64,000 nt of DNA from Stieleria neptunia (GTDB lineage: Bacteria > Planctomycetota > Planctomycetia > Pirellulales > Pirellulaceae). This document shows positions 43,100 to 59,153 of the stretch, one piece after another. Below the pieces are notes generated by a model that was given only the letters and a program-made list of their open reading frames with translations, ran no database searches and was not told where the DNA came from. Position 1 is the stretch's first letter. The number at the start of each line of letters is the position of its first letter. The stretch covers positions 9,482,938 through 9,546,937 of the forward strand of contig NZ_CP037423.1 of assembly GCF_007754155.1 (NCBI RefSeq), given 5' to 3'. The translations under genes and the position numbers were made by a program.

Positions 43100-43729
43100 T
43101 CAACGCCGACGGCGAATCACCAGCGGCAGCGCGATGGCGGCTAACACTGCCACCGACGAGGGTTCCGGGATGGCGGTGATTTGAAAGGCATCGATGGCCG
43201 CAGCGCCAGCGGTTGCTGTCAGGACGATCCGGTAGTTGTCTGCCGTGGACGTCGTGAAGTCGAGTGACTGGTCCATGAATCCACTTCCCGTTGGAACAAA
43301 GAAGCCGGCAGGGCCGCCAACGACCGAGGTACCGCCTCGCAGAATATCGACGCTGATGCCTGCATCGGAAATGGTATCGGCGGCGGCCAGTTGAAACGAA
43401 AGCCGGTAGATGGCAGCATCGAGCGCGACGTCCTGGCGAATCGTTGCAAAGTCCGGCGCCAATCCAATCAACGCGTACTGGTCCCCGTCGAGCACGGCCG
43501 GGTGAACCCCCGCCGCTTCTTTAAGGATCAAGACGGCGGAGCCAGACGCCGGATCGACCACCCAGCCCGCCCCGATGGGATCGCCCGGATTAAAAAACGC
43601 AAAACTCGATCCGTCCGGGATATCCGGAGTCTCAAACGACCCGTTGGTGACGACTGCCGCGTTCACCGAAACGGCAGCGATCGTCGCAGCAAAGACACAT
43701 GCGATGACTCCCCTGAAGCAAATGGTCAT
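43100..43729 (-). CDS. PEP-CTERM sorting-domain protein
   Basis: A 209-residue exported protein. The start at 43729 (ATG) gives a signal peptide (FRGVIACVFAATIAAVSVNA); upstream starts to 43903 run into the neighbouring gene's 3' region. The mature part begins VVTNGSFETPDIPDGS, typical of jelly-roll, carbohydrate-binding-like PEP-CTERM proteins. The C-terminus has the sorting signal IPEPSSVAVLAAIALPLVI followed by RRRR. It would be processed by an exosortase and placed on the cell surface or matrix; no exosortase gene lies in the window. Confidence 0.88.
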   Translation of the reverse strand: MTICFRGVIACVFAATIAAVSVNAAVVTNGSFETPDIPDGSSFAFFNPGDPIGAGWVVDPASGSAVLILKEAAGVHPAVLDGDQYALIGLAPDFATIRQDVALDAAIYRLSFQLAAADTISDAGISVDILRGGTSVVGGPAGFFVPTGSGFMDQSLDFTTSTADNYRIVLTATAGAAAIDAFQITAIPEPSSVAVLAAIALPLVIRRRR

Positions 43730-43930
43730 CGTGTCACTCTCACAGTTGGAGGCTGAATTCCGGCGGTTTGGAATACCGATCATACCTGAGGCCATCACCA
43801 ATTGCCTTCGAAAAGTTTCGAATAGCCGCCGGGTCGACTCGCCCATTGTCTTGGCCGTCCCTGGCAAACCGTTTGGCTGACAGACGCAATGACGCCACCC
43901 CACCCGGCCTCGTGTGCGATACCGGGCGGC

Positions 43931-46900
43931 CTAGCGGTCCTCGTCGCGTCGGATCGACAGCGGCAACGACGTGCCGTCTCCGTTGACGTCCAGGTGCAAA
44001 TCGCGTTGGGGGAACGGGATCGTGATGCCGGCCTGCTCGAGCGCCTCGGCGATCGCGGTATTGATTTGGTGCGTCACTTCGATTCGGTTGTCCAGCTTTT
44101 CCAGAAAGAAGCGAACGGCAAAGTTCAGCGAACTGTCTCCGAAGGTGTCGAAATTGATCAAGGGAGCGGGGTCGGTGAGCACCAGCGGGTGAGACCGCAC
44201 GACTTTGTAAAGCAGTTCGCGGACCTGATCGGGATCGCTTCCATACTCCACGCCGATTTCGATGGTCAGCCGATTGATGACGTTGGTGAGCGACCAGTTG
44301 AGCAGTTTTTGGGTGATCAGATCCTTGTTCGGAATCACCAGTTCTTTGCGGTCCCAGTTGGTGACCGTGGTGGCCCGCATTTGAATGCGCGAAACGATCC
44401 CGGTGGTGCCGTCGATCGTGACCACATCGCCGACTCGCACGGGGCGTTCGAGCAGCAGAATGATCCCGGAGACGAAGTTCGCCACGATTTCCTGCAATCC
44501 GAAACCGAGCCCGACCGATGCCGCGGCCAACAGCCAACCGAGTTGGTTGTAGGGAACGCTCAATAGGCTCAAGATGATGAAGCTGCCCACGACAACGATC
44601 ACGTAGCGCATCAGGGTGGCGATCGCATAGCGTGCTCCGCCATCGAGCGACGTTCTGCCGCGGACCATCAATTCGAACACGCGCGGCACCACTCCCGTCG
44701 CATAGATCATCAACGTCAAGCCGAGCAAACTGTACATCACATCGAGCAAGCTGACCGTTTCGATGTTTTCGCCGGTCCCCACATTCCAAAGCGAAACGTC
44801 GTCGAAATAGGTCAACGCGGGAACCAGATCACTCCAGATCCAGCCGATCCCGACCAGGACCAACAGCGACGCAAAGACAACGGCCGTTTGACGGCCTTGT
44901 TCGTCGAGTTTATCGAGATCCGCCGCGTTTTCTTCCTCAAGAACGATGCCGGCTTGACTTGCAATCGCTTGCCCTTCGGTCCCCTCCATTTCCTTGAGTC
45001 TTCGCTGCCGCAACTCCATCGCTTTCCGCCGTGCCAAATCCCGCCGCCGGAGCATCAACCAGCGGGTCAGCAGTCCGTGCATCAGGACCGTCGCCACGAG
45101 TAACAGGAACGTCATTTGAAGCGAGTGGCCCAGCCGAAAGGTCGTTTCCAAATAACCGGCCAACGCCATCAGCGCGCACAGGACCGGCAGTAAGACGGCC
45201 AGGCCCCACAGCACCTTCCGCATGCGATACAGCAATGAACTGGGATGATCGAGAATGAGTTGCACATACAGCGGACTTCGTTGGCGAAGCATCACGTGAT
45301 GAAAGACCGCGGTGACCAGGAACAGTGCCGTCGACAAAACCCGAATCGCGAAGATCCGAACGTCGGTATCGGGATGCTCAAAGAACAGGCCCATCGGAAA
45401 GACGATCAATCCGCCCACCCACGTGTACCAACGCAGGTGTCGTCGCAGGTGCCGCCGCAATCCGTCGGTCCATCCAAAGTGGCACTCCGCCACGCCCTGG
45501 TCACGACACACTTTGCCGAGCAGTTCTCGCGATGCGACGTACAGTGCGACCATCGCGAGGGCGTCCCCGAATCCGTGGACGAAGGGATCCGCCGGAGTCG
45601 TTTTTAGAATCAGGTAGGCAAACGTGCCCAGGCAAACGGGCCAGACCATCGCCACGACAAAGGTGGCCGCCAAGGCCCGCAGGGTCGAATCAAATCCGAC
45701 GTTGATCTTCGTCGCCTCCTCGCCCTCATGCTTGATCCGTTTCCGCGCCCAAGCACGTCCGAACAACACGGCAAACGCGACCACGATCAGCCCCAGCGAT
45801 CGCAACGGTTTGAGCGTGACCGTCAACACCATTTGCTCGACCGCCTTGGACCAGGACGTCGGCGAACTGACCCATTGGACCAACTCGGGCGCGACAGCCA
45901 ATTCGCCCAGGGAGATCGTCGGCGCATCCTTGGTCCAAAACAAATGCACATCGATGGCATCGATGAATTGGTCGATCAACAGGACCAATTCGCGCCGCTG
46001 CGTGTCGCTATTCAACATCGACTGCAAGACCGCATTTTGTGATTGCAGTGTTTCCTCAATCAACTCTTGCCGTTTGCGATACAACACCCATTCCGCCTCG
46101 TCTTGGCTCAAATCCTTCCAAGCAAACTCCGTCGCATCCGAATCGAGCTGCGGGACTTCGCGTTGAGCGAGCCCCTGGTTGATATCCGACAGTTCGTCTT
46201 CCAAACGAAACGTGCTGATTTGGTATTCTTCGACCTTTGCATTCAGATCGTCGCGGGGACGAAACTTGTTTTTCAACGCTTTGGCTTCGTCGCGTTGCTG
46301 ACGGAGGATTACGCCCAACGCGTCGGTCAGCCCGACCGCGTCGATCCGTTCTTTGGATGATTGTTGATCGGCCTTCACGTCCTCGATCGCGGCTTTCACC
46401 CCCAACAGGTTCTGCTGCGTTTCGGCCGCTTGCTCGATCAATTTCTTTTGGAGCTCGGCGAGTTCGACGTTTTTCTTCGCCAATCCGCGCAGATTCACTG
46501 GCACGGCGTTGACCGTTTGTTCCAAATTCGCCGCGGTCGCCCGTACCTGGTCTTTTTGCATTTCCAAAACCGCCGCCTGCAGCAGATCGGTTTGGCGACG
46601 CAATTGTGCGACGTTCGCCTCGGCCAATTTTCGCTCCAGCGGCAATAAATCCACCGTCGCGGTGTAGGCCGATTGCTCGTTTTGTAGGGACTCGATCCGG
46701 GTGGACAATTCTTCGGCGCGGGTGGCCAGCAACGTCTTGCGGGTCTGGGACTCGATCGCAGACTCATTGACCGGTGCCGCTTGAGACTGCTGCTTGACGA
46801 CCTCGGCGCGTTCGTTTTCGGCAGCGGTCAGCAATCCGGGAATTTCGGTCAGCCGAGTCCGCCGCCGCGCCGATTCGGCCGTCAGGTCCGTCACCTGTTT

Positions 46901-47374
46901 GGAGGCCGCGGCGAGCTCGGCGTTCAGCGTTGCCAAATTCTGTGTCGCATCGGCGAGCGTCAGATCGGCAGCGAGTTTCGGTTCTTGGCCCGCCAACGCA
47001 TCCAGTTTTGCCCGCAGCTCGGCCTGACGCGCCGCCACGCTGCCGATCATCTGCGAATACTGTTTGGCCAATTCCTGCTGCGACTGCCCTTGTTGCAACG
47101 TTTTTTTCGCTTGTTGCAACATCGCCACCAGCCGAGCCTTGGTCGCCTCGTCCAGGTCCGTCTTCAATTCCAGTGCCGCCAAATCGGCATCAATCGAATC
47201 CGCGGTGGGGCCGTTGGACGCGACAACCGGTGTCGCAGGGGGCGCAGGGGGCGCAGGGGGCGCATCCTGACCCGTGCAAGCCACTGAAGCGACCAGCACC
47301 CACAGCAGGGTCAAACATTGCAAGCAATGCGGACGACGGATCGGTCGGGCGAGCGGCATTTGGGCGGGTGTCAT
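43931..47374 (-). CDS. Large MscS-type mechanosensitive channel (MscK/MscM-like), paralog 1
   Basis: A 1147-residue channel protein. A signal peptide (CLTLLWVLVASVACTGQ) and a short Pro-Ala-rich spacer encoded by 9-bp repeats (APPAPPAPPA) precede a long periplasmic coiled-coil region (about 55-500). Roughly ten transmembrane helices and the MscS core follow: TM3 pore LAAASVGLGFGLQEIVANF, then ERPVRVGDVVTIDG, TVTNWDRKELVIPN, and the beta/alpha-beta vestibule to the end (IPFPQRDLHLDV). It should open on membrane tension to release ions and osmolytes, with the coiled coil acting as a periplasmic gate. A paralog is encoded divergently 461 bases away. Confidence 0.92.
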   Translation of the reverse strand: MTPAQMPLARPIRRPHCLQCLTLLWVLVASVACTGQDAPPAPPAPPATPVVASNGPTADSIDADLAALELKTDLDEATKARLVAMLQQAKKTLQQGQSQQELAKQYSQMIGSVAARQAELRAKLDALAGQEPKLAADLTLADATQNLATLNAELAAASKQVTDLTAESARRRTRLTEIPGLLTAAENERAEVVKQQSQAAPVNESAIESQTRKTLLATRAEELSTRIESLQNEQSAYTATVDLLPLERKLAEANVAQLRRQTDLLQAAVLEMQKDQVRATAANLEQTVNAVPVNLRGLAKKNVELAELQKKLIEQAAETQQNLLGVKAAIEDVKADQQSSKERIDAVGLTDALGVILRQQRDEAKALKNKFRPRDDLNAKVEEYQISTFRLEDELSDINQGLAQREVPQLDSDATEFAWKDLSQDEAEWVLYRKRQELIEETLQSQNAVLQSMLNSDTQRRELVLLIDQFIDAIDVHLFWTKDAPTISLGELAVAPELVQWVSSPTSWSKAVEQMVLTVTLKPLRSLGLIVVAFAVLFGRAWARKRIKHEGEEATKINVGFDSTLRALAATFVVAMVWPVCLGTFAYLILKTTPADPFVHGFGDALAMVALYVASRELLGKVCRDQGVAECHFGWTDGLRRHLRRHLRWYTWVGGLIVFPMGLFFEHPDTDVRIFAIRVLSTALFLVTAVFHHVMLRQRSPLYVQLILDHPSSLLYRMRKVLWGLAVLLPVLCALMALAGYLETTFRLGHSLQMTFLLLVATVLMHGLLTRWLMLRRRDLARRKAMELRQRRLKEMEGTEGQAIASQAGIVLEEENAADLDKLDEQGRQTAVVFASLLVLVGIGWIWSDLVPALTYFDDVSLWNVGTGENIETVSLLDVMYSLLGLTLMIYATGVVPRVFELMVRGRTSLDGGARYAIATLMRYVIVVVGSFIILSLLSVPYNQLGWLLAAASVGLGFGLQEIVANFVSGIILLLERPVRVGDVVTIDGTTGIVSRIQMRATTVTNWDRKELVIPNKDLITQKLLNWSLTNVINRLTIEIGVEYGSDPDQVRELLYKVVRSHPLVLTDPAPLINFDTFGDSSLNFAVRFFLEKLDNRIEVTHQINTAIAEALEQAGITIPFPQRDLHLDVNGDGTSLPLSIRRDEDR

Positions 47375-47489
47375 GGCGGGATCTTGGAGTCAAAACAGCA
47401 TTCTTTGTCCGGTTCGTGCGACCGGTCGGAGCATCATAGCGGGACCGTCCAGGATTCGAAGTGCGTCATTGACGCGGGCAGGTCGATGG

Positions 47490-47625
47490 GGTCGGAGATT
47501 GCCTTGTTCCCGGGCTCCCGCCTGGGAACACACTGTCATGGAGGCTCCCGCCTCCTAGCTGCCACCAACGCGTGGCAGGAGCCACCGCGGCCTGGCGTTC
47601 CCAGGCGGAGCCTTGGAACGAGGTT
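47490..47625. repeat. Repeat family G, hairpin-rich (gggctcccgcctgggaac)
   Basis: Segments ttcccgggctcccgcctggg, ggaggctcccgcctcc, gccaccaacgcgtggcagga and ggcgttcccaggcgg form several overlapping hairpins. It occupies the middle of the 47375-47835 gap between the divergent MscS genes, together with repeat C copy 2 (47627-47676); no gene is seen there. Confidence 0.65.
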
Positions 47626-47626
47626 C

Positions 47627-47676
47627 AGAAGTCACCCTCCCGTGTGCGGGAGGGTCGAGCGCAGCGAGGGGAGGGT
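47627..47676. repeat. Dispersed repeat family C, copy 2
   Basis: agaagtcaccctcccg, a hairpin (ccctcccgtgtgcgggaggg) and tcgagcgcagcgaggggagg correspond to the reverse complement of 965-1010. Confidence 0.7.
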
Positions 47677-47835
47677 TTCCGCGGCCCCGCAGCCACCGAT
47701 GCCAACAACAACGCCAAAGCCCTGTCGGATCGCTGAAACGACTTGCCGCGATCTGCCCTTCTGTCGTAGTGTCGACGCTGCGGTACTGGCGGACCGCCGC
47801 ACGTTCCCCATCACGATTCAGGCAGGAGGCCTGCT

Positions 47836-50800
47836 TTGTTGTCTCATTCGATCAAGTGCCGGATCTTCTTCGCGTTGACGCTCAGCTGTGGATTGGCCAC
47901 ATCGGTCGGTGTGTCGGCGGTCGACGAGCCCCTCCCGGCGGGTCCAGCGCAGGCCGAACCAAGCCTGCAGTCTCCCACGCTGACGGTGGAACAGATCAAC
48001 CAGCGGCTGCAAACGGTTGACCAGGACGCATCACTCCCGCCCGAGGTCCGGAACTCCGTCTCGGAATCCTATCGAGCCGCGTTGGCGGACTTGAAAACGG
48101 CCCAAGACTTGACCCGTCGACGAGAAGAGTTCGCCGCGGAAGCGGAAGCGGCCGGTGCCAAAGCCGAACGGATTCGCGGAAAACTGGAGGAACTCAAAAC
48201 CAAACAACCGGTGATCGATTCCGAATTGAAATTGGTCGAATTGGAACAGCAACTGGCACAGCTCGAGCTGCAACTGGCGACGCAGAAACAAAACCGACTG
48301 ACGGCCGAATCGGAATCGCAGACCCGTTCGCAACGTCGCAAAGAGATTCGATCACATTTGGTCCTGTTGCAGCAGAAACTCGAGGAGACGCGACGCAGCC
48401 GCGTGCCCGACGCCGCCGCCGAGCCCACGCCATTGACCACGGCCCGGCAAGCCCGCGCCGAAACCAGCCAGCATGTTCTGGAGATCGAGATCCCGACGCT
48501 CGAGGCGGAACTGGCCAAGTATGACGCCGAAGAAGCGCTCGGCATCGTCCAGCTGCGATCGGATTTGGCAGCCAAGCAGGTGATGTTTACCGAAAAGAGC
48601 CTGGAGGCGTTGGGGGTTCGCATCAAGGCGGCGAGAGAACTGGCCGCGGCCGAATCGGTCCGCAAAGCAAAGCTTGAAGCGATCGAAGCGGCGCCCTCGC
48701 TGCGGGCGTTCGCCCAACAGAATCAGGAGTTGGCCGAAAGTGCCAAGCGGGTCGCCGATTCGCTGGCGACGGCCGAACAAGACTTGAAAGCCGCCACCGA
48801 CGTCCACGAACGACTGGCCAAGCAATTCAAAACGACGAAAACCAAAGTGGAGTTGGTGGGTTTGACCAGCTCGGTGGGCGCCTTGCTGCGCAAACAACGC
48901 TCCACCTTGCCCGACGTTCGACAGCGAAAGATCGAGGTCGCCAACCGCCAGACGTTGATCAATGACGCCCAGTACGAACTGTTTGAATTCGATGATGAAC
49001 GTCAAGCGATCGCGGACACCGAATCCTGCATCGCCGAGATGATCCAGCCCCCGACCAGCGGCCGCGAAACCACAGGCCGCGATACCGCCGTGCTCAAGTC
49101 GGCTGCCCAAGAATTGCTGGCCCGAAAACAGGAATACCTGGACGCGTTGATTCGAACCAGCAACCAGTACTTCGATGCGTTGGTGGAACTCGATTTCGAA
49201 GACCGCCAGATCATCACGTTGACCGCCGAGTACGAAAACTACATTGACGAGCGTGTCCTGTGGATCCGCAGCGCACGATTCCTGTCCGATGATTTCGCGA
49301 TCGAATCGACCGACAAACGGCTGCTGGACGCGAAAGCCTGGCTGGGTCTGGGAACTCATCTGGCCAAGGATGCACGTGACAGGTTTCCGCTGTACCTGTT
49401 GGCCGCCGCGGTGATCGGAGTGTTGATGTTGCGGCGCAAACGGATGCGTGGGCGGATCAAGGATGCGGGCGAGATTGCGTTCAAAGCGAACTGCCGATCG
49501 ATGGTCCCGACGGTGCTGACGTTGGCCTTGACGATCGTCATTTCCGCGACCGGGCCACTGTTGTGCCTGTTTCTGGGCTGGCGATTGAGTGTCTCCCACG
49601 CCGACGACCTGTTCATCAAGGGCGTCTCGCGCGGGCTGATCGGCGTCGCCGCGATCTGGTTGGCGTTGGAGAGTCTGCGTCAGGTCTGTCGGCCGTTGGG
49701 GTTGGCGGAAAACCACTTTCGCTGGAGCCGCAGTGTGACGACCACGGTGCGTCGTGAACTCCGTCAACTGATGGGTTTCGCGTTGCCGATCATGTTCGTC
49801 ACCGGCATGTTGTCGGTGACCGATTCGTCGCACGGTCGCAATTCGGTCGAGCGGGTGGCCTACATCGCCGGCATGCTCGTCTTGGCGGTGTTTCTGTATC
49901 GGATCCTCAGCCCCGGCGGGGTGCTGCGCGATTACTTGGCGACCCACAAATCCGAATGGGCCAGCCGGCTCCGTCACGTCTGGGGAATTTCGGCGGCGAG
50001 CGTGCCGTTGACACTGGGGCTGTTGGCGACGTTCGGTTATTACTACACAGCCGAGGTGCTGTTTTGGCGTGTGTTTGCGACCGCGCTGTTCGGTTCCGCT
50101 TTGTTCGTGTTGCGTTCGATGTTCCTGAGGATGTTGATGCTGCGTCGACGTTCGCTGAGCATCGCCCAATCGCGTCAGCGTGCCGCGGCGGCCGCTTCGT
50201 CGGGCAGCGATGACGAGGGGCGTCAATCGGTCGCCGGCATCGTGACCTCGACACCGGAAAGCGACATTTCGACACACAGTCTGCAATCCCAACGCCTGGT
50301 CAACAGCGCGTTGATCGCCGCATCGGTGATCGGGCTATGGTGCATCTGGGTGCAAGTCTTGCCCGCGCTGGGGATGTTGGACAAATACGAACTGTGGGGC
50401 GGATCGAAGACACCCACCGTCGCCGCGGCGGCAGCCCCGGCGGTCGGATTGGTCCCGGGGCAAGAAGCCTTGGATCGCTCCGCGGCGACCGGCGACGCGA
50501 CCGACGAGTCCACCGATGTCGTCACGGCGTCGGACTTGGCGCTGGCCATCCTGCTCGCTTTCGTCACGTTTGTGTTGGCCAGAAACGGACCGGGCTTGTT
50601 GGAAATCTCGGTGCTGCAGCAGTTGCCGGTCGATCAATCGGTCCGGTATGCGATCACCACCCTGGTCAGCTATGCGATCGTGCTGGCCGGGACGATCGCG
50701 ACCTGTTCGACGATCGGGCTGCAGTGGTCCCAAATCCAATGGCTGGCGACGGCGTTGACCTTCGGTTTGGCGTTCGGTTTGCAAGAGATGTTTGCGAACT

Positions 50801-51363
50801 TCGTGGCCGGTCTGATCATCTTGCTGGAGCGTCCGATCCGCGTCGGCGACGTGGTGACGGTCGATGATGTCACCGGAGTCGTCTCCAGGATCCGCATCCG
50901 AGCGACCTCGATCACCAACTGGGACCGCAAGGAATACGTCGTTCCCAATAAGGAATTCATCACCGGCCGGTTGCTCAACTGGACGCTCTCGGACAAGGTC
51001 AATCGGATCGTGATCGAGGTCGGACTGGCGTATGGATCCGACACCGAACGGGCCCGCGAGATCCTGCTCAAAGCGGCCAACGACCACCCGCTGATTCTGG
51101 ACGACCCGCCGTCGCTGGCCACCTTTGAAGGGTTCGGCGACAACGCACTGAACCTCTCGTTGCGGACCTATCTTCCGACCCTGGACAATCGGCTGGAAGT
51201 GATTCATCAGCTGCATACCGAGATCGATCAAGCGTTTCGCCGGGCCGGAATCGAGGTCGCGTTCCCGCAACGGGATCTGCACATTCGCACGATGCCGGCC
51301 GCGGTGGCGTTGGGGCTGGAGGGGGATCGGCAGCAGACCAAGTCGATCAGCGAAGCGGCGTAG
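47836..51363 (+). CDS. Large MscS-type mechanosensitive channel, paralog 2
   Basis: A 1175-residue paralog of the divergent channel at 43931-47374 with the same layout. The TTG start at 47836 is supported by an AGGAGG ribosome site 6 bases upstream and a signal peptide directly after it (FFALTLSCGLATSVGVSA). A periplasmic coiled coil (about 45-480) is followed by transmembrane helices and the MscS core: LTFGLAFGLQEMFANFVAGL, ERPIRVGDVVTVDD, SITNWDRKEYVVPN, and VAFPQRDLHIR near the end. An Ala/Gly/Thr-rich insertion near residue 860 (AAAAAPAVGLVPGQ) interrupts the helix bundle relative to paralog 1. A tension-gated role is expected. Confidence 0.92.
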   Translation: MLSHSIKCRIFFALTLSCGLATSVGVSAVDEPLPAGPAQAEPSLQSPTLTVEQINQRLQTVDQDASLPPEVRNSVSESYRAALADLKTAQDLTRRREEFAAEAEAAGAKAERIRGKLEELKTKQPVIDSELKLVELEQQLAQLELQLATQKQNRLTAESESQTRSQRRKEIRSHLVLLQQKLEETRRSRVPDAAAEPTPLTTARQARAETSQHVLEIEIPTLEAELAKYDAEEALGIVQLRSDLAAKQVMFTEKSLEALGVRIKAARELAAAESVRKAKLEAIEAAPSLRAFAQQNQELAESAKRVADSLATAEQDLKAATDVHERLAKQFKTTKTKVELVGLTSSVGALLRKQRSTLPDVRQRKIEVANRQTLINDAQYELFEFDDERQAIADTESCIAEMIQPPTSGRETTGRDTAVLKSAAQELLARKQEYLDALIRTSNQYFDALVELDFEDRQIITLTAEYENYIDERVLWIRSARFLSDDFAIESTDKRLLDAKAWLGLGTHLAKDARDRFPLYLLAAAVIGVLMLRRKRMRGRIKDAGEIAFKANCRSMVPTVLTLALTIVISATGPLLCLFLGWRLSVSHADDLFIKGVSRGLIGVAAIWLALESLRQVCRPLGLAENHFRWSRSVTTTVRRELRQLMGFALPIMFVTGMLSVTDSSHGRNSVERVAYIAGMLVLAVFLYRILSPGGVLRDYLATHKSEWASRLRHVWGISAASVPLTLGLLATFGYYYTAEVLFWRVFATALFGSALFVLRSMFLRMLMLRRRSLSIAQSRQRAAAAASSGSDDEGRQSVAGIVTSTPESDISTHSLQSQRLVNSALIAASVIGLWCIWVQVLPALGMLDKYELWGGSKTPTVAAAAAPAVGLVPGQEALDRSAATGDATDESTDVVTASDLALAILLAFVTFVLARNGPGLLEISVLQQLPVDQSVRYAITTLVSYAIVLAGTIATCSTIGLQWSQIQWLATALTFGLAFGLQEMFANFVAGLIILLERPIRVGDVVTVDDVTGVVSRIRIRATSITNWDRKEYVVPNKEFITGRLLNWTLSDKVNRIVIEVGLAYGSDTERAREILLKAANDHPLILDDPPSLATFEGFGDNALNLSLRTYLPTLDNRLEVIHQLHTEIDQAFRRAGIEVAFPQRDLHIRTMPAAVALGLEGDRQQTKSISEAA

Positions 51364-51380
51364 GGGGTTCGGAAGAGTGA

Positions 51381-51405
51381 GTGGCGTAAGCTTCCAGCTT
51401 GCGGT
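51381..51405. repeat. Short repeat family D, copy 3
   Basis: gtggcgtaagcttccagctt followed by gcggt, 17 bases after the stop of the MscS paralog 2 gene. Confidence 0.75.
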
Positions 51406-51410
51406 GTATG

Positions 51411-51508
51411 ACTGCAGCTTTTCGCAACCCATTTAGATTCTCTCTCCCTCTGGGAGAGACGGCGTTTGCGCAGCAAGCAAACGCCAGAGAGGGCCCACGC
51501 TGCAAAAG
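51411..51508. repeat. Dispersed repeat family B, copy 2
   Basis: A near copy of 724-820 in the same orientation (acccattta, ctctgggagagacggcg, caagcaaacgccagagaggg). The rest of the 51364-51817 gap contains further GC-rich, low-information sequence and probably the promoter of the following three-gene unit. Confidence 0.8.
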
Positions 51509-51817
51509 TCGCCGCCGCCCCAGAAACCGAAAGCCTTGACAGGCTGTTGACGGCTTCCGCTACGATCAAATCCGTCGCGATTTACAATCGACGGTCCTCG
51601 GGTTGTGCTGTCGCTTCGTTTCGACTCCGGCGTGTTCACTGCGCTCGACCGCCGGCTACGTGACTACGTCCCTTTCGGGATCCACAAGCCCGCGCGGTGG
51701 TGTTAGACGGCTTAGGTAGCGGTTATAGTGAAGTTCGCTGCGAGGTGTTTTCCGAGCCAACGCCCTCACCACGTCGTGGCCGATCCGCCCCAAGCTGCTG
51801 ACCACAAGTCTGTTCTC

Positions 51818-53050
51818 ATGGTGATCGTCGCAACGGCAATCAGTGACAAGGGATTGAAACGCGACGGAAACGAAGATCAGTATCTGATCGACGAGAGCCT
51901 GGGGTTGTACGTCGTTTGCGACGGCATGGGCGGCCATGCGGCCGGCGAAGTGGCAGCCGAGCGGGCGATCGAGTTCGCGTCGGAGCACCTATCCAAGAAC
52001 CGCGACCTGATCCACTCGGCCGGCGAGTCGCCCGACGGGGTGTTTCGGGTGCTGAAGGTCGTCGAAGAAGCCGTCCAGCAGGCGAGCCAGGGGCTGAATC
52101 TGCTGGCCAGAACCACGCCGGACTATGCCGGGATGGGGACCACGTTGACGTTATTGGTCGTCGTGGAGGACAAAGGGGTGATGGCCCACGTCGGTGATTC
52201 GCGTTTGTATTTACTGCGCCAAACCGAAGTCCATCAGCTCAGCAGCGATCACACGTTGGCCAACGAGCTCTTTCTATCCGGGGACCTGACCCGAGAAGAA
52301 GCCAGCAACAGCCGCTACCGACACGTCCTGACGCGCAGCATCGGCCCGCACGAGTACGTCGACGTCGACACCTTGCTGTTCGATTTGATTCCCGGCGACC
52401 GACTGCTGCTGTGCTCCGACGGACTGAGCAACTATTTCGAAAGCACGTCGTGCGTCGCCGGTTTCCTGTCTGAACCGGACCTGATCGAACAACCCGACAG
52501 GCTGGTGGAGTTCGCCAAGGAATCCGGCGGTGCCGACAACATCACCGCGATCGTGGTCGAAGTGCAGGGTGAGGTGACCGATCAACCGGCCGCGGACGTC
52601 CAAAAGAAAATCGAATGCCTGCAGGGTGTGTTCCTGTGCGAAAAGCTGTCGGTTCGTCGTCTGATGCACTTGGTTTCGATCACCACGATTATCCAATGTG
52701 CCGCCGGCAAAGAGCTGATTTCTATCGATGACGGACTGCCCGGTCTGTCTGTCGTCCTGGACGGTCGGTTTCGCGTGATCGACGACGATGTGATCGAGGG
52801 AGAACTCGGTCCGGGGGACTGTTTTGGTGAAGCGTCCTTGCTGACCGAGGTTCAATCATCGGCATCGCTTGTCGCCATCGAACCGTCCCGCGTGCTCGTG
52901 ATCAGCCGCAAGGAATTCGGCAAACTGACGCGGCGGCTGCCACGATTGGGCAACGTGATGCTCCGCAATCTGGGAAAGCGGCTCGCCAAACAAATCATCA
53001 AGCAACAAACCCGAACGCTGAACCTGGATGACACGGGGCCACTGGAATGA
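51818..53050 (+). CDS. PP2C-family protein phosphatase fused to a cyclic-nucleotide-binding-like domain
   Basis: A 410-residue protein. The ATG at 51818 starts VIVATAISDKGLKRDGNEDQ, the usual PP2C N-terminus; the longer frame from 51728 lacks similarity. The phosphatase domain (about 1-250) has metal motifs YVVCDGMGGHAAGE, MAHVGDSRLYLL, LLLCSDGLSNYF and GGADNITAIVVEV, typical of bacterial Stp/PrpC enzymes that reverse Ser/Thr kinase action. The C-terminal domain (about 275-395) has the cNMP-binding-domain fold (LSVVLDGRFRV, LGPGDCFGEASLL), but its phosphate cassette lacks the conserved arginine. It overlaps the next gene by 4 bases (ATGA), so the phosphatase is coupled to two receptor-channel genes. 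Confidence 0.9.
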   Translation: MVIVATAISDKGLKRDGNEDQYLIDESLGLYVVCDGMGGHAAGEVAAERAIEFASEHLSKNRDLIHSAGESPDGVFRVLKVVEEAVQQASQGLNLLARTTPDYAGMGTTLTLLVVVEDKGVMAHVGDSRLYLLRQTEVHQLSSDHTLANELFLSGDLTREEASNSRYRHVLTRSIGPHEYVDVDTLLFDLIPGDRLLLCSDGLSNYFESTSCVAGFLSEPDLIEQPDRLVEFAKESGGADNITAIVVEVQGEVTDQPAADVQKKIECLQGVFLCEKLSVRRLMHLVSITTIIQCAAGKELISIDDGLPGLSVVLDGRFRVIDDDVIEGELGPGDCFGEASLLTEVQSSASLVAIEPSRVLVISRKEFGKLTRRLPRLGNVMLRNLGKRLAKQIIKQQTRTLNLDDTGPLE

Positions 53051-54165
53051 ATCACATCGGCCGCGTCTGCATGATCCAACTGTTGGTCCTGGGCACACTG
53101 TGCTGCCTCGGCGACATCGCAACCGCGCAACCGGCAGCCGCGCAACCTGCAGCCGAAGCACAGGGATCAGGGCCGTCGATCGTGGTCGGGACCAAGCACA
53201 GCCCACCGTTTGCGATCAAGAACGACGACGGGACCTGGAGCGGCATCAGCATCGAACTGTGGAAGAACCTGTGCACCGAATTGGATCTGGAATATGAATT
53301 CCGGGAGATGACGCTCGAGCAAATCTTGCAGGGGCTGGAGCGTGGTGACATCGATGCCGGCGTGGCGGCGATCAGCGTCACGGCGGAACGCCACCAACAG
53401 ATGGAGTTCTGCCACCCACACTATTCCACCGGCCTGGGGATCGCCGTCGCCCGACACCATCGGTCCAGTGTCTGGGCATCGATTCGACAGATCTTCAGCT
53501 TTCGAATGGTGTTGTTTGTCGTCTGCATGGCGTGCGTGGTCGCGTTGTGCGGCTGGTTGTTCTGGTTGTTTGAACGCAAACGCAACGAAACGGTGTTCGG
53601 CAGCGGACGGCGCCAGGGGGTCTCGATGGGCGTCTGGTGGTCGATCGTGGTGCTGTTGGGGCACAAGGGGGTCGTACCGGTCAGCATTTGGGGCAGGGTC
53701 TTGGCGACGATTTCGATGTTGGCCAGCATTGCCGTGATCAGCCTGATCACGGGCGTCGTTGCGTCGGCGTTGACGGTCCGGGAATTGGACATCGGGATCG
53801 CCCAACCGAGTGATCTGCGTCATGTCCAGGTCGCGACGGTGGCATCGAGCACCAGCACCGAGTATCTGCGAAATCGACGGATTGCGTTTCGCGCCTACCC
53901 GACACCCGAGGACGCGGTCCGTGCGGTCGAAACCGGCAAAGCGGACGCGGCGGTGTACGACCGGGCGCTGCTGAGGCATCTGGCGATGCAAAAATTTCAT
54001 GATCAGATCGACGTCTTACCCGTCTCGTTCAACCTGCAGGAGTACGCGATCGCGTTGAAACGGGGCAGCGACTTGAGACGACCGCTGAACGAGGGATTGC
54101 TGCGTTATCGAGCGACCGATGCCTGGAGCGATCTCTTGTACCGCTATTTGGGAGACGTGCAGTGA
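53047..54165 (+). CDS. Glutamate-receptor-like channel protein with atypical pore loop
   Basis: A 372-residue protein with the layout of prokaryotic ionotropic glutamate receptors (GluR0-like): signal peptide (LLVLGTLCCLGDIATAQ); lobe S1 of a periplasmic solute-binding domain (SIVVGTKHSPPFAIKNDDG, AAISVTAERHQQMEF); M1 (MVLFVVCMACVVALCGWLF); a pore loop (VVLLGHKGVVPVS, L203-P211); M2 (VLATISMLASIAVISLITGV); and lobe S2 (VATVASSTSTEYLRNRRIAF). The K+ filter TVGYGD of its paralog is absent and two residues are missing, so it may be non-selective or serve as a regulatory subunit. It is translationally coupled to the phosphatase before it and the paralog after it. Confidence 0.85.
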   Translation: MNHIGRVCMIQLLVLGTLCCLGDIATAQPAAAQPAAEAQGSGPSIVVGTKHSPPFAIKNDDGTWSGISIELWKNLCTELDLEYEFREMTLEQILQGLERGDIDAGVAAISVTAERHQQMEFCHPHYSTGLGIAVARHHRSSVWASIRQIFSFRMVLFVVCMACVVALCGWLFWLFERKRNETVFGSGRRQGVSMGVWWSIVVLLGHKGVVPVSIWGRVLATISMLASIAVISLITGVVASALTVRELDIGIAQPSDLRHVQVATVASSTSTEYLRNRRIAFRAYPTPEDAVRAVETGKADAAVYDRALLRHLAMQKFHDQIDVLPVSFNLQEYAIALKRGSDLRRPLNEGLLRYRATDAWSDLLYRYLGDVQ

Positions 54166-55295
54166 TCCACCGACGCGCCGTTCCCTTGATCGTGCTGTTG
54201 ATCTGCTTGCCCCTGGGCGGTGGCCACTGCTGGGCTCAACCCGATGATCCGCCGGAGAGCTTGGAGGTTCCCGATGAAATCGTCGTCGCGACGCGGGACG
54301 TTCCGCCGTTCGCGATGCAAAACGGGGACGGCGATTGGGAGGGCATCAGCATCGACCTGATGCGTCAGATCAAATCGGATTTGGAAGAGGCGTCGAAGCA
54401 TAAGATTCAGCTTCGCTTTGAATCCTATCCGCTCGACGAGATGCTCGATGCGGTCGCGGCCGGACGGGTGGACGTTGCCGTCGCCGCGATCACCGTCAAC
54501 GCAGAACGTGAACGGCGGATGGATTTCACGCATGCGTTCTTCCAATCCGGGCTCGGCATCGCCGTCGGCAGCTCGCAGCGGCGCGCGGCATGGCAAGGGA
54601 TCATCGAGGCGGTCCTCTCACCGACGTTTTTGCGAATCCTGGCGGGTTTGATGTTCGCGATGTTGATCAGCGCGATCGCGGTGTACTTTTTCGAACGAAA
54701 GCATCACGACGGCGATTTTGAATACGGCATCGTGCGGGGAATCGGAGCGGGATTGTGGTGGGCGGCGGTGACACTGACCACCGTCGGTTATGGCGACAAG
54801 GTTCCCAAGACGTTGCCGGGCCGGATGATCGGATTGATTTGGATGTTTTCGGGGCTGTTCATCATCGCCAGTTTCACCGCGGCGGTGACGTCGGCATTGA
54901 CCGTCAACCAACTTCGTTCGCGGGTCGCCGGACCGGGGGACCTGTCGCGGGTCAAGGTCGCGACGGTGGCCGGTTCGACATCGGCCGGCTATTTGCGCTC
55001 GCGTCACATCCGCTTTCGGTCCCACGAGAGCGTTGAACTGGCGTTGCAATCTCTCGCAGAAGGACGCTGCGATGCGGTCGTCTATGACGCCCCGATTCTT
55101 CGGCACCTGGTGTTCCAAGCCGAAGCCGGCGACCAGTTCGTTCTGCCGGTCACCTTCGAACGCCAAAGCTATGCGTTTGCCCTTCCCAGCGGCAGTCCAT
55201 TGCGTGAACCGATCAATCAAAGTCTACTTCACTGGACCTCCTCATCCAGCTGGGAAGACACATTGCAAAGCTATCTCGGGGACGATGTGGAATGA
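54162..55295 (+). CDS. Glutamate-receptor-like ligand-gated K+ channel (GluR0 type)
   Basis: A 377-residue protein: signal peptide (VPLIVLLICLPLGGGHCWA), S1 lobe (IVVATRDVPPFAMQNGDG; VAAITVNAERERRMDFTHAF with the ligand-carboxylate Arg region), M1 (ILAGLMFAMLISAIAVYFF), a pore loop with a complete potassium filter TTVGYGDKVP (T206-P215), M2 (MIGLIWMFSGLFIIASFTAA) and S2 lobe (VATVAGSTSAGYLRSRHI). It should conduct K+ on binding an amino acid or similar ligand in the periplasm. The GTG start at 54162 overlaps the upstream stop by 4 bases. Paralog of the preceding gene; the two may assemble as heterotetramers. Confidence 0.9.
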   Translation: MIHRRAVPLIVLLICLPLGGGHCWAQPDDPPESLEVPDEIVVATRDVPPFAMQNGDGDWEGISIDLMRQIKSDLEEASKHKIQLRFESYPLDEMLDAVAAGRVDVAVAAITVNAERERRMDFTHAFFQSGLGIAVGSSQRRAAWQGIIEAVLSPTFLRILAGLMFAMLISAIAVYFFERKHHDGDFEYGIVRGIGAGLWWAAVTLTTVGYGDKVPKTLPGRMIGLIWMFSGLFIIASFTAAVTSALTVNQLRSRVAGPGDLSRVKVATVAGSTSAGYLRSRHIRFRSHESVELALQSLAEGRCDAVVYDAPILRHLVFQAEAGDQFVLPVTFERQSYAFALPSGSPLREPINQSLLHWTSSSSWEDTLQSYLGDDVE

Positions 55296-55378
55296 GATGA
55301 CGACGGTTTGATCGCGGGCACCTCGAGAGTTTTTAACGACCACGTTTGCGGTCGGCATCCAACGCCAGGAATGGGTCA

Positions 55379-56461
55379 GTGAGTCAAAAGATCTTCAAGA
55401 AGCGACACACCCGAATTGGCGCCCGTCCCGGCACCCTGGTGATCTCGAAACAGTCACCGCGGCCAGTCGTTCGCGGCATCTTCTATAATCCAGAGAGTTT
55501 CGAAGACCAGCCCATCGAGGATCTGGATCGGTTAACAGAAGCGTTCAAAAAGGAGACGATCGCCTGGATCGACGTGCAGGGATTCGGCGACCGATCGGTG
55601 ATGAATAAAGTCGGGTCGGTGTTCGGATTACACCCGCTGCTTCTGGAAGATGTCGTCAACGTCCCGCAGCGGCCCAAGACCGAATTGTACGACGACCAGC
55701 TTTTGATCGTCGTCCGCATGGTCCGCTTGAAAGACCCCGAGGACCAGTCTCGCTATCGTGTCGACATGGAACAGGTCAGCATCGTTCTGGCGGAGAACTA
55801 CGTGATCACGTTCCAAGAACGCTACGGCGACATCCTGGACCCGGTCCGCAAACGGATCAAGGGCGGCAAGGGCATCATTCGACACCGCGGGACGGACTAC
55901 CTTGCCTATGCGATCGCGGACACGATCGTGGACGGCTATTACCCGGTGCTGGAAGGAGTCGGCAATGATTTGGAGGCGATGGAAGACGAAGTGATTCGCA
56001 ACCCTTCGCCGGAGGTTCTGGGTGAGCTGAACACGTTGAAAAATCAACTGATCAATCTTCGCCGCGCGGTCTGGCCGCAACGCGAAGCGGTCAACTCCTT
56101 GGTCCGGGGGGACTACGCCCTGATCGGCGAAGACGTTCGCGTCTTCCTGCGTGACACCCACGATCACTGCATCCAGACGTCGGAGGTCGCCGAGATGTAT
56201 CGCGAGATGGCGACGGGCTTGATGAACACGTACTTGTCATCGGTCGCCAACCGGACCAACGACGTCATGAAGGTGCTGACCGTGATGGCCAGCTTGTTCA
56301 TTCCGTTGACGTTCATGGCCGGAATCTACGGCATGAATTTCGAACACATGCCCGAGTTGCACTACCGCTACTCGTACCCCCTGCTGTGGGCGGTGATGAC
56401 CGTCACCACCGTCGGCATGCTCATCTTCTTCTGGCGCAAGGGTTGGATCGGACGGGGTTGA
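55379..56461 (+). CDS. corA: CorA-type magnesium/cobalt transporter
   Basis: A 360-residue CorA family protein forming a pentameric Mg2+ (Co2+) channel. I take the GTG at 55379 because it has an AGGA ribosome-site-like sequence upstream; a TTG at 55346 would add 11 residues. The cytoplasmic domain has IAWIDVQGFGD, HPLLLEDVVNVPQRPKTELY and RNPSPEVLGELNTLKNQL. The stalk helix leads to two C-terminal transmembrane helices: the first ends in the essential GMN motif (LTFMAGIYGMNFEHMPEL), and the second is WAVMTVTTVGMLIFFWRK. It is 84 bases downstream of the receptor-channel operon, and a repeat separates it from mgtE. Confidence 0.92.
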   Translation: MSQKIFKKRHTRIGARPGTLVISKQSPRPVVRGIFYNPESFEDQPIEDLDRLTEAFKKETIAWIDVQGFGDRSVMNKVGSVFGLHPLLLEDVVNVPQRPKTELYDDQLLIVVRMVRLKDPEDQSRYRVDMEQVSIVLAENYVITFQERYGDILDPVRKRIKGGKGIIRHRGTDYLAYAIADTIVDGYYPVLEGVGNDLEAMEDEVIRNPSPEVLGELNTLKNQLINLRRAVWPQREAVNSLVRGDYALIGEDVRVFLRDTHDHCIQTSEVAEMYREMATGLMNTYLSSVANRTNDVMKVLTVMASLFIPLTFMAGIYGMNFEHMPELHYRYSYPLLWAVMTVTTVGMLIFFWRKGWIGRG

Positions 56462-56500
56462 CGTGCATGGCCATGCGTAACCCCTGGTGGGCTGACCCGA

Positions 56501-56585
56501 TGAAGCATTTTTTAGCGGCAGGGCGCGAGCCCTCCGGTGTTTTGGCAGAAATGAAGAACCGGAGGGCTTGCGCCCTGCCGCTAAA
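56501..56585. repeat. MITE-like palindromic repeat family E, copy 2 (inverted)
   Basis: gaagcattttttagcggcag and the stem gcagggcgcgagccctccgg / ccggagggcttgcgccctgc enclose a loop tgttttggcagaaatgaaga. It is the inverse complement of the inner part of 1096-1228, but the right outer arm is missing. The 56462-56748 gap also contains a small hairpin gtgcgtgacgggtggcatgc and no gene. Confidence 0.8.
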
Positions 56586-56748
56586 ACCTCATGCGGTGTA
56601 GGTCACGCTGTGCGTGACGGGTGGCATGCACAGCATGCCCTACGCAACTGCCATCTATTTCTGCTCCGCGGTCAACGCGGCTTGCCAAGGCGCGAATCGG
56701 CGTCAGACTGGAGTGCCACTCGACCGTTTTAGATGAAAGGCTGCCACT

Positions 56749-58176
56749 TTGACCACTCCAAACGAACCGGACGTTCTCGACACGATCGCCCCCTCCGATT
56801 CTGCTGCCGACGAGGTTGCCGTTTCCGACCGCCCTTGGGAAGAACTCTCCCGTTTGGCCGAACAGGGTGACGCCGAGCGTCTGGAAGAATTCCTCTCGGA
56901 ACTCTCGACGACCGACCAGGCGCTGGCGCTGAGTCGCTTGGACGAAGTCCATCGCGTGCAGGTGCTCGAGGGGTTGGATGCCGAGGACGCGGCGGATTTG
57001 ATCGCGGCGTTGCCCGAGGTCCAGGCCGCCGAGGCGATCGCGTCCCTGGAACCGGACACCGCCGCGGCGATCGTCCACGAGTTACCCAGTGACGAACAAG
57101 CGGACGTGCTGGGCGATTTGAACGACCAACAGGCGGCGGCCATTTTGGACGTCTTGCCCGTCATCGAAGCCGACGCCGCCCGCCAACTGGCGTCCTATGA
57201 AGATGACGTCGCCGGCGGAATGATGGTGCTGGAGATGCTTCGCTTTACCCCCGACATGACCGTCGCGGACGTCATCGCCGAGCTGAATTCCAACGCCGAG
57301 ATCTACAGCGATTTTGATGTCCGTTACGCCTACGTGTGCGAACAGGATGGTTCGCTGGTCGGTGTGCTGCCGATGCAAAACCTGTTGTTCGTCCGGCGTG
57401 GATCCAAACTGCGCGATCTGATGATCACCGAACCGATTTCGGTGCCCGACACGACGCCGCTGGATGAATTGATCGAACTATTCGATGCCCATCACTTTCT
57501 GGGCGTTCCGGTGGTCGATCACGACGGACGGCTGAAGGGCGTCCTGCACCGTGAAGCGGTCAATTACGAAGAAACCCGCGCGGCCGAAAGCGACTATCTC
57601 AAGAGCCAGGGGATCGTCGGCGGCGAGGAGCTGCGTTCAATGCCGCTGTGGCTTCGTGCCCGCCGGCGACTGAGTTGGTTGAGCATCAACATCTTGCTGA
57701 ACATCGGTGCCGCCGCGGTGATCGCCTACTTTCAAGAAACCCTGCAAGCGGTGATCGCGCTGGCCGTGTTTCTGCCGATCATCAGCGACATGAGCGGTTG
57801 CAGCGGCAATCAAGCGGTCGCGGTCAGCATGCGTGAACTGTCGCTCGGTTTGGTACGCCCCTCCGAAGTCTTTCGCGTTTGGTGGAAAGAGGTTTCGGTG
57901 GGATTGATCAACGGAGCGGTTTTGGGGTTGTTGGTCGCCATCTGCGCCGTGATCTTTGACGGCAACGGCTACCTGGGCCTGGTCGTCGGCGTCGCGTTGT
58001 TCGCCAACACAATCGTCGCGGTCTCGATCGGCGGCGTGGTACCGCTGGTGCTGAAACGATTCGGGTTCGACCCCGCCGTCGCCAGCGGGCCGTTACTGAC
58101 CACGGTGACGGACATGTGCGGCTTCTTCCTCGTGTTGGGCTTGGCCACGCTGCTGCTCTCGCGGCTGGTGGCCTGA
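56749..58176 (+). CDS. mgtE: MgtE-type magnesium transporter
   Basis: A 475-residue MgtE. The TTG start at 56749 has a GAAAGG ribosome site 8 bases upstream. The N-domain of alpha-helical repeats (about 30-155, ALSRLDEVHRVQVLEGLDAE, AAAIVHELPSDEQADVLG) is followed by two CBS domains (about 160-280, DVRYAYVCEQDGSLVGVLPM and FLGVPVVDHDGRLKGVLH). Five transmembrane helices follow, with the pore motif IISDMSGCSGNQAVAVSMRE and a C-terminal helix ending LLLSRLVA. Mg2+ binding between N and CBS domains gates the channel in known homologs. With corA next door, both main Mg2+ channel families are encoded together. Confidence 0.94.
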   Translation: MTTPNEPDVLDTIAPSDSAADEVAVSDRPWEELSRLAEQGDAERLEEFLSELSTTDQALALSRLDEVHRVQVLEGLDAEDAADLIAALPEVQAAEAIASLEPDTAAAIVHELPSDEQADVLGDLNDQQAAAILDVLPVIEADAARQLASYEDDVAGGMMVLEMLRFTPDMTVADVIAELNSNAEIYSDFDVRYAYVCEQDGSLVGVLPMQNLLFVRRGSKLRDLMITEPISVPDTTPLDELIELFDAHHFLGVPVVDHDGRLKGVLHREAVNYEETRAAESDYLKSQGIVGGEELRSMPLWLRARRRLSWLSINILLNIGAAAVIAYFQETLQAVIALAVFLPIISDMSGCSGNQAVAVSMRELSLGLVRPSEVFRVWWKEVSVGLINGAVLGLLVAICAVIFDGNGYLGLVVGVALFANTIVAVSIGGVVPLVLKRFGFDPAVASGPLLTTVTDMCGFFLVLGLATLLLSRLVA

Positions 58177-58179
58177 ACC

Positions 58180-58220
58180 GTGGCGTAAGCTTCCAAGTGG
58201 CGTAAGCTTCCAGCTTGCGG
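58180..58220. repeat. Short repeat family D, copies 4 and 5 in tandem
   Basis: A truncated unit gtggcgtaagcttcca (58180-58195) is followed by a complete one, agtggcgtaagcttccagct with tgcgg after it (58196-58220), right after the mgtE stop codon. Confidence 0.75.
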
Positions 58221-58342
58221 TTCCCCATCAACACCGCATGGCGGGCAGGATGCTTCCGTCACGCGAGAGGTAAGCGTTCTATCTGCCCATGTTGACCGAC
58301 TGGTTAGCGTGATGGGTTTCTTTCCACTCTCAGGAGAAACCC

Positions 58343-58708
58343 ATGCCGCAGTTTCCCAACCCGCAGCTCGCACAGCAGTGGCGTGACCGTATTGAACGGT
58401 TCGCCCAATCCGACCTAACGGTCGCCGATTTCTGTGATCGGGAAGGCTATTCGGTTGCCTCATTCTATCAGTGGCGGCGTAAGCTGCGTTCCTCTGTTCT
58501 CGTTGATCCGTCAGCCCCCAGCGATCGACCGGCCTCGTTCGTCGCTGTTGAGCTTCAGCCCGTCGCGATGGAAGCGGCCCAACTGAATGGCCTGGAAATT
58601 GAATTGCCTGGTGGGGCCGTTGCTCGCCTCGACCAGAACGCCACCGACGAGCAGCAACGCAGACTGATCAAGAACGTCGTCGAGGCACTCAGCGAGGTGG
58701 CATCGTGA
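58343..58708 (+). CDS. tnpA: IS66 accessory protein TnpA
   Basis: A 121-residue IS66 orfA product. The helix-turn-helix region near the N-terminus reads RFAQSDLTVADFCDREGYSV, followed by ASFYQWRRKLR, the usual IS66 OrfA/TnpA signature. The C-terminal part contains the LEIELPGGAVARL strand typical of the family. It binds DNA or helps transposition together with TnpB. It overlaps tnpB by 4 bases (GTGA). Confidence 0.9.
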   Translation: MPQFPNPQLAQQWRDRIERFAQSDLTVADFCDREGYSVASFYQWRRKLRSSVLVDPSAPSDRPASFVAVELQPVAMEAAQLNGLEIELPGGAVARLDQNATDEQQRRLIKNVVEALSEVAS

Positions 58709-59067
58709 TCGCACTTGCACCCACCACTCGGATCTTTGTCTACACCGAGGCGACCGATATGAGGAAGAGTTTCAATGGCTTGTCCGGACTCGTCAAAGAA
58801 CATTTCCAGGTCGACTTGTTCTCTGGTCATCTGTTCGTCTTTTTCAACCGCCGGCGCGACTATGTCAAGATTCTGATGTGGGACTGTGATGGCCTGGCTC
58901 TCTGGTCCAAGCGACTCGAAAGTGGAAGCTTCGAGAAGGTTGTCTCCGAGGAACAAGGCAGCTTCGAAATCGATTCCGCCGGCCTGGTCATGATGCTCCG
59001 CGGTGTGCAGATTGAAGGATCGCAACGACGCAAACGTTACTCGATCGATCAGCCGCAGGCGGCCTGA
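58705..59067 (+). CDS. tnpB: IS66 accessory protein TnpB (IS66 Orf2)
   Basis: A 120-residue protein with all TnpB hallmarks: TRIFVYTEATDMRKSFNGLS, HLFVFFNRRRDYVKILMWD and GLALWSKRLESGSFE. It uses a GTG start inside the tnpA stop. Its role in IS66 transposition is required but not biochemically defined. A strong hairpin with a T-tract follows before tnpC. Confidence 0.93.
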   Translation: MIALAPTTRIFVYTEATDMRKSFNGLSGLVKEHFQVDLFSGHLFVFFNRRRDYVKILMWDCDGLALWSKRLESGSFEKVVSEEQGSFEIDSAGLVMMLRGVQIEGSQRRKRYSIDQPQAA

Positions 59068-59134: not shown

Positions 59135-59153
59135 TGATGGCGATAACAGCGGC

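Follow-up and report, generated by a model that had tools for sequence, protein, structure and literature searches.

A glutamate-receptor gene pair, one with a K+ filter and one with a lysine-bearing pore loop, overlapped by a phosphatase gene in Stieleria neptunia and related planctomycetes

Bacterial ionotropic glutamate receptors (iGluRs) tend to be seen as simple ancestors of the animal receptors. We consider here a locus of the planctomycete Stieleria neptunia where two such receptor genes, GluR_A and GluR_B, directly follow a gene for a Ser/Thr phosphatase of PP2C type; it lies in a stretch of 64,000 nt (the window; contig NZ_CP037423.1, positions 9,482,938 to 9,546,937) of a genome assembled as a single contig of 11.0 Mb. 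GluR0 of Synechocystis (slr1257) is a K+ channel acting in cell-volume control under high KCl, and cells without GluR0 shrink faster after KCl upshock (passages of PMC13099474). Prokaryotic iGluRs with no recognised K+ filter, Group 2, made up 10 of 22 channels in the passages of Ger 2010 (PMC2950845). As at the present locus, genes of CorA-like and MscS type lie together in the cmaX-cfrX-cmpX operon of Pseudomonas aeruginosa; the passages of PMC7641640 that describe it mention neither a glutamate-receptor channel nor a PP2C.

GluR_B shares with GluR0 the split SBP-type ligand domain, the M1-P-M2 pore, the TVGYG filter and the conserved Arg and Asp, and so has the S1-M1-P-M2-S2 arrangement and filter of Group 1 receptors. 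GluR_A lacks the Group 1 filter and has the topology of Group 2; in contrast to Group 2, it nests among planctomycete GYG proteins, with an apparently single origin, an LGxK motif and pairing with a GYG gene. Whereas the passages of PMC2950845 and PMC13099474 mention no partner gene for GluR0, here the gene of the GYG subunit is overlapped by that of a filterless paralogue, itself overlapped by the phosphatase gene. Filterless bacterial iGluRs and an operon of CorA with MscS genes are known already; the filter/filterless gene pair overlapped by a phosphatase gene appears to be new. In the open-licence literature we found no report of an operonic filter/filterless iGluR pair in bacteria, and no paper on iGluRs of this bacterial group. 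The explanation we favor, with a probability of roughly 0.5, is that GluR_A and GluR_B are partner subunits of one amino-acid-gated channel in K+ and volume control.

The two proteins are 38% identical. GluR_B scored 48.2 bits against Lig_chan and GluR_A 28.9 bits, just below the cut-off of 30.8; the best PDB sequence match of both was 2pyy, the ligand domain of a bacterial iGluR (9.6e-29 for GluR_A). The K+ signature TTVGYGD is present in GluR_B, which is also matched by Ion_trans_2. The pore loop of GluR_A, WWSIVVLLGHKGVVP, has no GYG, is two residues shorter and places a lysine in the filter strand. Among the relatives of each protein (clades A and B) the clade A loop follows the consensus L[LF]G[HN]K[GS], the second position being F once and the fourth H or N; L203, G205, K207 and P211 are invariant in 21 of 21 rows. 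TTVGYGDKVP is identical in all 25 clade B rows. Arg115, Ser268, Thr269 and Asp305, the places that hold the alpha-amino acid in iGluRs (for Arg and Asp, passages of PMC2950845), were kept in 21 of 21 A rows and 25 of 25 B rows. A sequence-only reading of the locus had described two receptor channels; both are indeed of iGluR type, but it missed that the pores differ (LLGHKG versus TTVGYG), and as the filter of GluR_A is altered we speak of two unlike subunits. In mixed A/B tetramers the broken K+ filter and the lysines would be expected to leave K+ conductance changed, weaker or blocked.

In another explanation GluR_A does not conduct at all and regulates GluR_B by sensing ligand, by silencing or as a dominant-negative subunit, its lysine plugging the filter. 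The lost filter signature, the shorter loop with its invariant lysine and the Lig_chan score below cut-off in the window's protein would suit such a regulator, as would the fact that B can occur alone and A rarely does. However, four invariant loop residues in 21 of 21 rows are more than a plug seems to need; the point is not decisive, and we consider a non-conducting regulator unlikely.

Decay of GluR_A could be addressed through selection. The ratio of nonsynonymous to synonymous substitution rates (dN/dS, five genome pairs for each gene) was 0.07-0.18 for GluR_A and 0.10-0.16 for GluR_B, i.e. purifying selection of similar strength. Since loop and ligand residues are conserved and selection is purifying, GluR_A is, on these comparisons, neither a pseudogene nor a sequencing error; the latter was ruled out as the cause of the lost filter because the loop recurs in 21 rows, drawn from different genomes. 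The window's own genome has a further iGluR-like gene, the third and a distant one, which carries STVGYG (G000:C1:4454792-4455772, L071; here and below G numbers denote genomes and L numbers sequence records).

To place the lysine loop we used two trees, both quick ones without pore columns or bootstrap, in which a few long branches meet. In the first, of 79 rows, the 21 lysine-loop proteins stood on one side of a branch (SH-aLRT 99); 57 of the other 58 rows had TVGYG or SVGYG, and one (L093) had GVGYG. In the second, of 82 rows including eight filterless plasmid proteins, the lysine-loop rows were again set apart by one branch (99), the plasmid proteins falling elsewhere (4 changes) and having loops other than that of clade A. 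A broken GluR_A of G170 (L087) and duplicate named records (L095-L103, L106) were omitted from all trees, and five very long rows from the second as well. On these trees it looks as if the lysine loop arose once. As the filterless plasmid proteins have other loops and lie elsewhere, the clade A loop also seems to mark an independent loss of the K+ filter among the iGluRs of planctomycetes; common descent of GluR_A with other filterless bacterial iGluRs was not found on the quick tree, where the comparators were the eight plasmid proteins (from alphaproteobacterial, vibrio-type and cyanobacterial plasmids) and the sequences of Ger were not among the rows.

Altogether 17 plasmid records matched, at no more than 38.6% identity, and the lysine loop was present in none of the eight opened. 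The homologue on a Rhizobium tumorigenes plasmid (L278 3872-4993; 38.6% identical to GluR_A) has the loop TQASTGHRG and no adjoining second GluR; that on a plasmid of the cyanobacterium Kovacikia (L283 2683-3969) has LIGQDV, with the same two-residue shortening as GluR_A and no lysine. A search for phage carriage gave no phage match. Movement of the receptor unit itself is suggested by G012, whose RecA is 91-93% identical to that of the window (identities lowered by untrimmed open-frame ends) while its GluR_A is only 57% identical; its A and B proteins are nearest to those of other genera or families. Thus the unit may move horizontally. Distances among A and among B proteins co-vary beyond RecA, with a partial rank correlation of 0.61 and 0 of 2000 permutations as high, which linkage alone can cause.

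Clade profile searches covered 241 genomes of the family and 392 genomes drawn from the larger phylum group, all Planctomycetota. In the family, clade A was found in 16 of 241 genomes (640-676 bits) and clade B in 20 (21 genes, 636-735 bits), the two together in 15; of the 16 A-bearing genomes, 14 had A immediately 5' to B. Outside the family A>B pairs (> gives gene order) occurred in three lineages: G391 and G528, of the same class, and Botrimarina, where the order in B. colliarenosi is A>B>CorA. In 15 of 17 pairs B has an in-frame start within -4 to +4 of the A stop, Botrimarina and G528 being the exceptions. A scan of named genomes with two peptide patterns gave Stieleria sedimenti, strain TBK1r, 'Rhodopirellula' sp. 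SM50 and JC639 as records with the most similar GluR_A. Since A, in the genomes examined, has a GYG receptor with it in all cases but G028 and perhaps L105, and B is often alone, the distribution fits A as an accessory subunit.

The phosphatase carries a C-terminal domain of cyclic-nucleotide-binding (CNB) type. Orthologues with at least 57% identity were found in 13 of 241 family genomes and adjoined a GluR gene in 11 of them; the other two were in G029 and in G013, where the gene stands next to MscK2 and no GluR was found. The receptor-free stretch of G013 (L230 6073-9252) continues from MscK2>PP2C to a 1059-aa protein without Pfam match. The overlap of phosphatase and receptor genes pointed out in the sequence-only reading proved general: an in-frame ATG or GTG lies at -4 of the PP2C stop in 11 of 11 PP2C>GluR junctions, even if the gene that follows is B, as in G007, or a broken A, as in G170. 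The phosphatase is probably produced by translational coupling with the receptor. All 15 aligned homologues keep the motifs NED, DG(M/L)GGH, SDG and GGxDN, which we take to be catalytic; the score against the Stp1/PrpC equivalog NF033484 of NCBIfam was 218.6 bits, short of the cut-off of 230. Pfam cNMP_binding was matched in seven of seven PP2C proteins tested.

A number of observations weigh against partner subunits working with a phosphatase. GluR_A and GluR_B lie on different contigs in G007, where the GYG receptor is unlinked; in G028, which is 99% complete, GluR_A is intact and is the only GluR found; G458, outside the class, has an unlinked A plus a GYG receptor; and in L105 no B accompanies A over 7 kb of sequence downstream. 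Five of the 20 B-bearing family genomes lack A (G043, G168, G169, G174, G175), as does G621, outside the family; given the former, B does not need A. No such receptor was present in 6 of 14 genus-level genomes, and the A>B pairs of G019, G040, G186, G391 and G528 have no adjoining PP2C, CorA or MscK in the stretches fetched. The loop block of clade A is conserved, though not exceptionally (15% of blocks of equal length are as low). Monomer models from AlphaFold2 were of poor quality (mean pLDDT 50.9 for A and 61.5 for B) and yield no pore geometry. In the phosphatase, the place of the phosphate-binding arginine of CNB domains (an arginine expected where cAMP or cGMP is bound) is Ser in 14 of 15 proteins, Pro in G184 and Arg in none.

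The lone A of G028 and the unlinked copies of G007 and G458 would suit a different explanation: GluR_A forms its own homomeric amino-acid-gated channel, not selective for K+ (possibly for anions, or weakly selective), and A and B are separate co-expressed receptors. In favor of this, GluR_A retains a full pore segment and the ligand residues, filterless bacterial iGluRs exist elsewhere (passages of Ger 2010, PMC2950845), and each of the eight plasmid stretches fetched has one filterless gene and no second. Yet A has B in its genome in all but one of the 16 family cases and mostly directly beside it; four lysines in a ring would disfavour cations; and the lone A of G028 is the longest end branch among family A rows in the first tree (0.63). 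We regard separate receptors as rather unlikely, though first among the alternatives.

With partner subunits as the preferred explanation, we turn to the genes around them (Table 1). All seven ion-related genes that the sequence-only reading had listed were found at its coordinates in the open reading frame (ORF) list and Pfam scan of the window, six of them on the plus strand from 47836. The ORF of PP2C is open from 51728, its likely start being the ATG at 51818; the CorA reading frame opens 50 bases past GluR_B. Between corA and mgtE there is an inverted repeat with 29-bp arms (56510-56586), and between MscK2 and PP2C a dispersed repeat (51380-51405), with AGTGGCGTAAGCTTCC-type copies at 51380 and, after mgtE, at 58179-58221. 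As these repeat-bearing spacers set off MscK2 and MgtE, the tight part of the locus appears to be PP2C-A-B-CorA rather than all seven genes. No Rfam match at gathering threshold, to a Mg2+ riboswitch or other known RNA, was found in 43000-60000; a sigma-70 promoter scan gave zero matches, which is uninformative as shuffled sequence averages 1.6.

Table 1. Genes and sequence elements of the locus (positions in the window)
Feature	Position	Strand	Evidence
MscK1, divergent MscK/MscM-like channel	43931..47374	-	Pfam MscS_TM, porin, MscS domains
MscK2, MscK/MscM-like large mechanosensitive channel	47836..51363	+	Pfam MscS_TM, porin, MscS domains
PP2C Ser/Thr phosphatase, C-terminal cNMP-binding-type domain	51818..53050	+	Pfam PP2C_2 7.2e-15, cNMP_binding 6.4e-14
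ATGA overlap, PP2C stop / GluR_A start	53047..53050	+	sequence
GluR_A, SBP_bac_3 ligand domain split by M1-P-M3 pore	53047..54165	+	SBP_bac_3 7.7e-25
GluR_A altered pore loop LLGHKG, residues 203-208	53653..53670	+	sequence; lysine 207 = 53665-53667
GTGA overlap, GluR_A stop / GluR_B start	54162..54165	+	sequence
GluR_B, same architecture as GluR_A, K+ filter TTVGYG	54162..55295	+	SBP_bac_3, Lig_chan, Ion_trans_2 1.6e-13
GluR_B K+ selectivity filter TTVGYG codons	54777..54794	+	sequence
CorA magnesium/cobalt transporter family	55346..56461	+	Pfam CorA 1.3e-63
MgtE magnesium transporter, possibly separate transcript	56749..58176	+	NCBIfam TIGR00400; hairpin-type repeat upstream

The seven-gene order is complete in five genomes: the window, G004, G005, G006 and G008; G009 keeps six of the seven genes, to CorA, where its contig ends. 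Eight of the 14 genus-level genomes have A and/or B, and MscK1/MscK2-PP2C-A-B-CorA is in order in six of these eight, the blocks of G012 (MscK2>A>B>CorA) and G007 (PP2C>B>CorA) being partial; the scattering in close relatives that had been named beforehand as refuting the island was not seen for the core. Elsewhere the order is MscK2>PP2C>A>B>CorA in G081 (CorA frame split in two), PP2C>A>B in G136 (CorA divergent) and G204, and B>CorA in G168. G170 has MscK2>PP2C>broken A>B>CorA, with an intact A>B pair elsewhere in the genome; the broken gene (L087 6131-6759) consists of pieces matching residues 18-146 and 277-372, the pore being absent, and starts at -4 of the PP2C stop. One could ask whether this is more than a loose grouping of functionally uncoupled transporter genes, and the patchy distribution, with A>B pairs that lack PP2C or CorA, would agree with that. 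However, the order is kept in other genera at 52-73% protein identity, together with the four-base overlaps, and there is a distant version in G298, where an MscK-type gene, CorA and PP2C-CNB stand beside a single GYG receptor (CorA beside one also in G418). We give a mere loose cluster almost no credence.

The outer genes behaved differently. MscK1 and MscK2, 30% identical to each other, share the porin, inner-membrane and MscS domains of MscK/MscM channels and scored 515.3 and 536.8 bits against NCBIfam MscK (NF008438), below the equivalog cut-off of 991. The pair of MscK-like channels is thus present and divergent as described before; as the scores fall under that cut-off we label both MscK/MscM-like. 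MscK2 likewise precedes the unit in G012, G081 and G170; MscK1 was seen, among the loci fetched, only in the Stieleria core. CorA (TIGR00383, 324.4 bits, cut-off 200.75) and MgtE (TIGR00400, 269.8 bits, cut-off 232.75) exceeded their thresholds. Outside the Stieleria core MgtE is a looser neighbour of the receptors: 51% identical and 3.8 kb off in G285, 24% identical and 9 kb off in G351. It appears that MscK1 and MgtE are mostly lineage-specific.

At 35308-40871 the window also holds a gene of sigma-70-like type and, after it, two genes for Ser/Thr kinases, of which the first has WD40-like repeats; a possible role in the block had been proposed for these kinases (36281-40871). A counterpart of the second is near the block in three of five core relatives (G004, G005, G009), and one of the first was not found in the four core relatives with a long enough stretch, so both were dropped as members of the unit. 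The proposal they belonged to, a seven-gene island for ion and osmotic homeostasis under the control of the phosphatase and both kinases, accounts for the shared order of the five genomes and of G009, and its core recurs in other genera; but outside the Stieleria core MscK1 does not recur, MgtE does so only loosely, the kinases are not kept, and the repeats part MscK2 and MgtE from the tight unit. We find the full island very improbable. That the block controls K+, Mg2+ and osmotic pressure, as also proposed, we infer as well.

Neighbours of 25 A- or B-bearing loci from 22 genomes were compared all against all, with one locus representing the Stieleria core. Recurrent were CorA (8 loci), PP2C (6) and MscK (4); four more families recurred in 3-6 of the 25 loci: RimK-type, and prepilin-like, transposase-like and sulfatase-like (these three named by eye). 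The RimK-type glutamate ligase was found in 9 of 68 stretches searched: those of G040, G043, G170, G005, G008, G285 and G298, one beside the G184 PP2C and one beside the G185 CorA. A C-terminal TrkA_C domain is present in the copies of G040 and G170, and those of G005 and G185 also match TrkA_C; no TrkA_C match was found in the copies of G285 and G298 over the stretch scanned. A RimK-type gene is present somewhere in each of the 21 family genomes that carry A, B or both; its distance from a receptor gene is at most 14 kb in eight of them, from three lineages (G000, G004, G005, G006, G008, G040, G043, G170), and elsewhere or on another contig in the other 13. That of the window's genome (G000:C1:9552002-9553204) is 5 kb beyond the window end; one of the copies in relatives spans L074 11281-12498. 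For one or two copies per genome this proximity exceeds chance, yet it is loose: we would call the ligase an associate, not a core member. Other genes of the window are IS66-type transposase genes directly 3' of mgtE (58343-60782; HTH_Tnp_1, TnpB_IS66, DDE_Tnp_IS66) and, on the minus strand at 27886-35418, a 2510-aa protein with dockerin, C-type lectin, beta-helix, GEVED and DUF1573 domains.

Taken as partner subunits, the two receptors could work as follows. PP2C-CNB>GluR_A>GluR_B>CorA would be co-transcribed as one expression unit, with MscK2 upstream. GluR_B would be an amino-acid-gated K+ channel subunit of GluR0 type; GluR_A, also amino-acid-binding, would supply a short lysine-bearing pore loop instead of a K+ filter. 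Most likely, A and B would assemble into one ligand-gated channel, a heteromer where B sets the K+ conductance and A changes or restricts it, in a way reminiscent of the GluA2(R) subunit in AMPA receptors. Eukaryotic AMPA (GluA1/GluA2) and NMDA receptors likewise combine two unlike subunits with a basic pore-loop residue in one; in contrast to them, there is no N-terminal domain or M4 here, the genes are overlapping bacterial ones, assembly is predicted, and the lysine does not align unambiguously with the Q/R/N site. The cytosolic phosphatase, probably coupled with the receptor in translation, would be placed to dephosphorylate the channel, CorA or MscK2. Such a system may allow fast K+ adjustment under ionic or osmotic stress, CorA adding Mg2+ entry and MscK2 emergency release of solutes; the TrkA_C-bearing glutamate ligase nearby would fit the K+ and glutamate theme. 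The fuller statement, a bacterial heteromeric iGluR of GYG and lysine-loop subunits, with a selectivity other than that of GluR0 and made in step with a PP2C tuner, is tentative: possible, though short of probable.

A conserved gene pair of K+-filter and lysine-loop receptors would show that subunit diversification and filter replacement took place within bacteria. Its small protein products could be used to study how an iGluR departs from K+ selectivity, and the overlapping phosphatase gene is a way to ask if phosphorylation controls bacterial ligand-gated channels. If true, the heteromer would be an independent invention of the AMPA-like design, two subunits with a charge in the pore, and the TrkA_C-bearing glutamate ligase nearby would tie the receptor to a K+-glutamate stress circuit.

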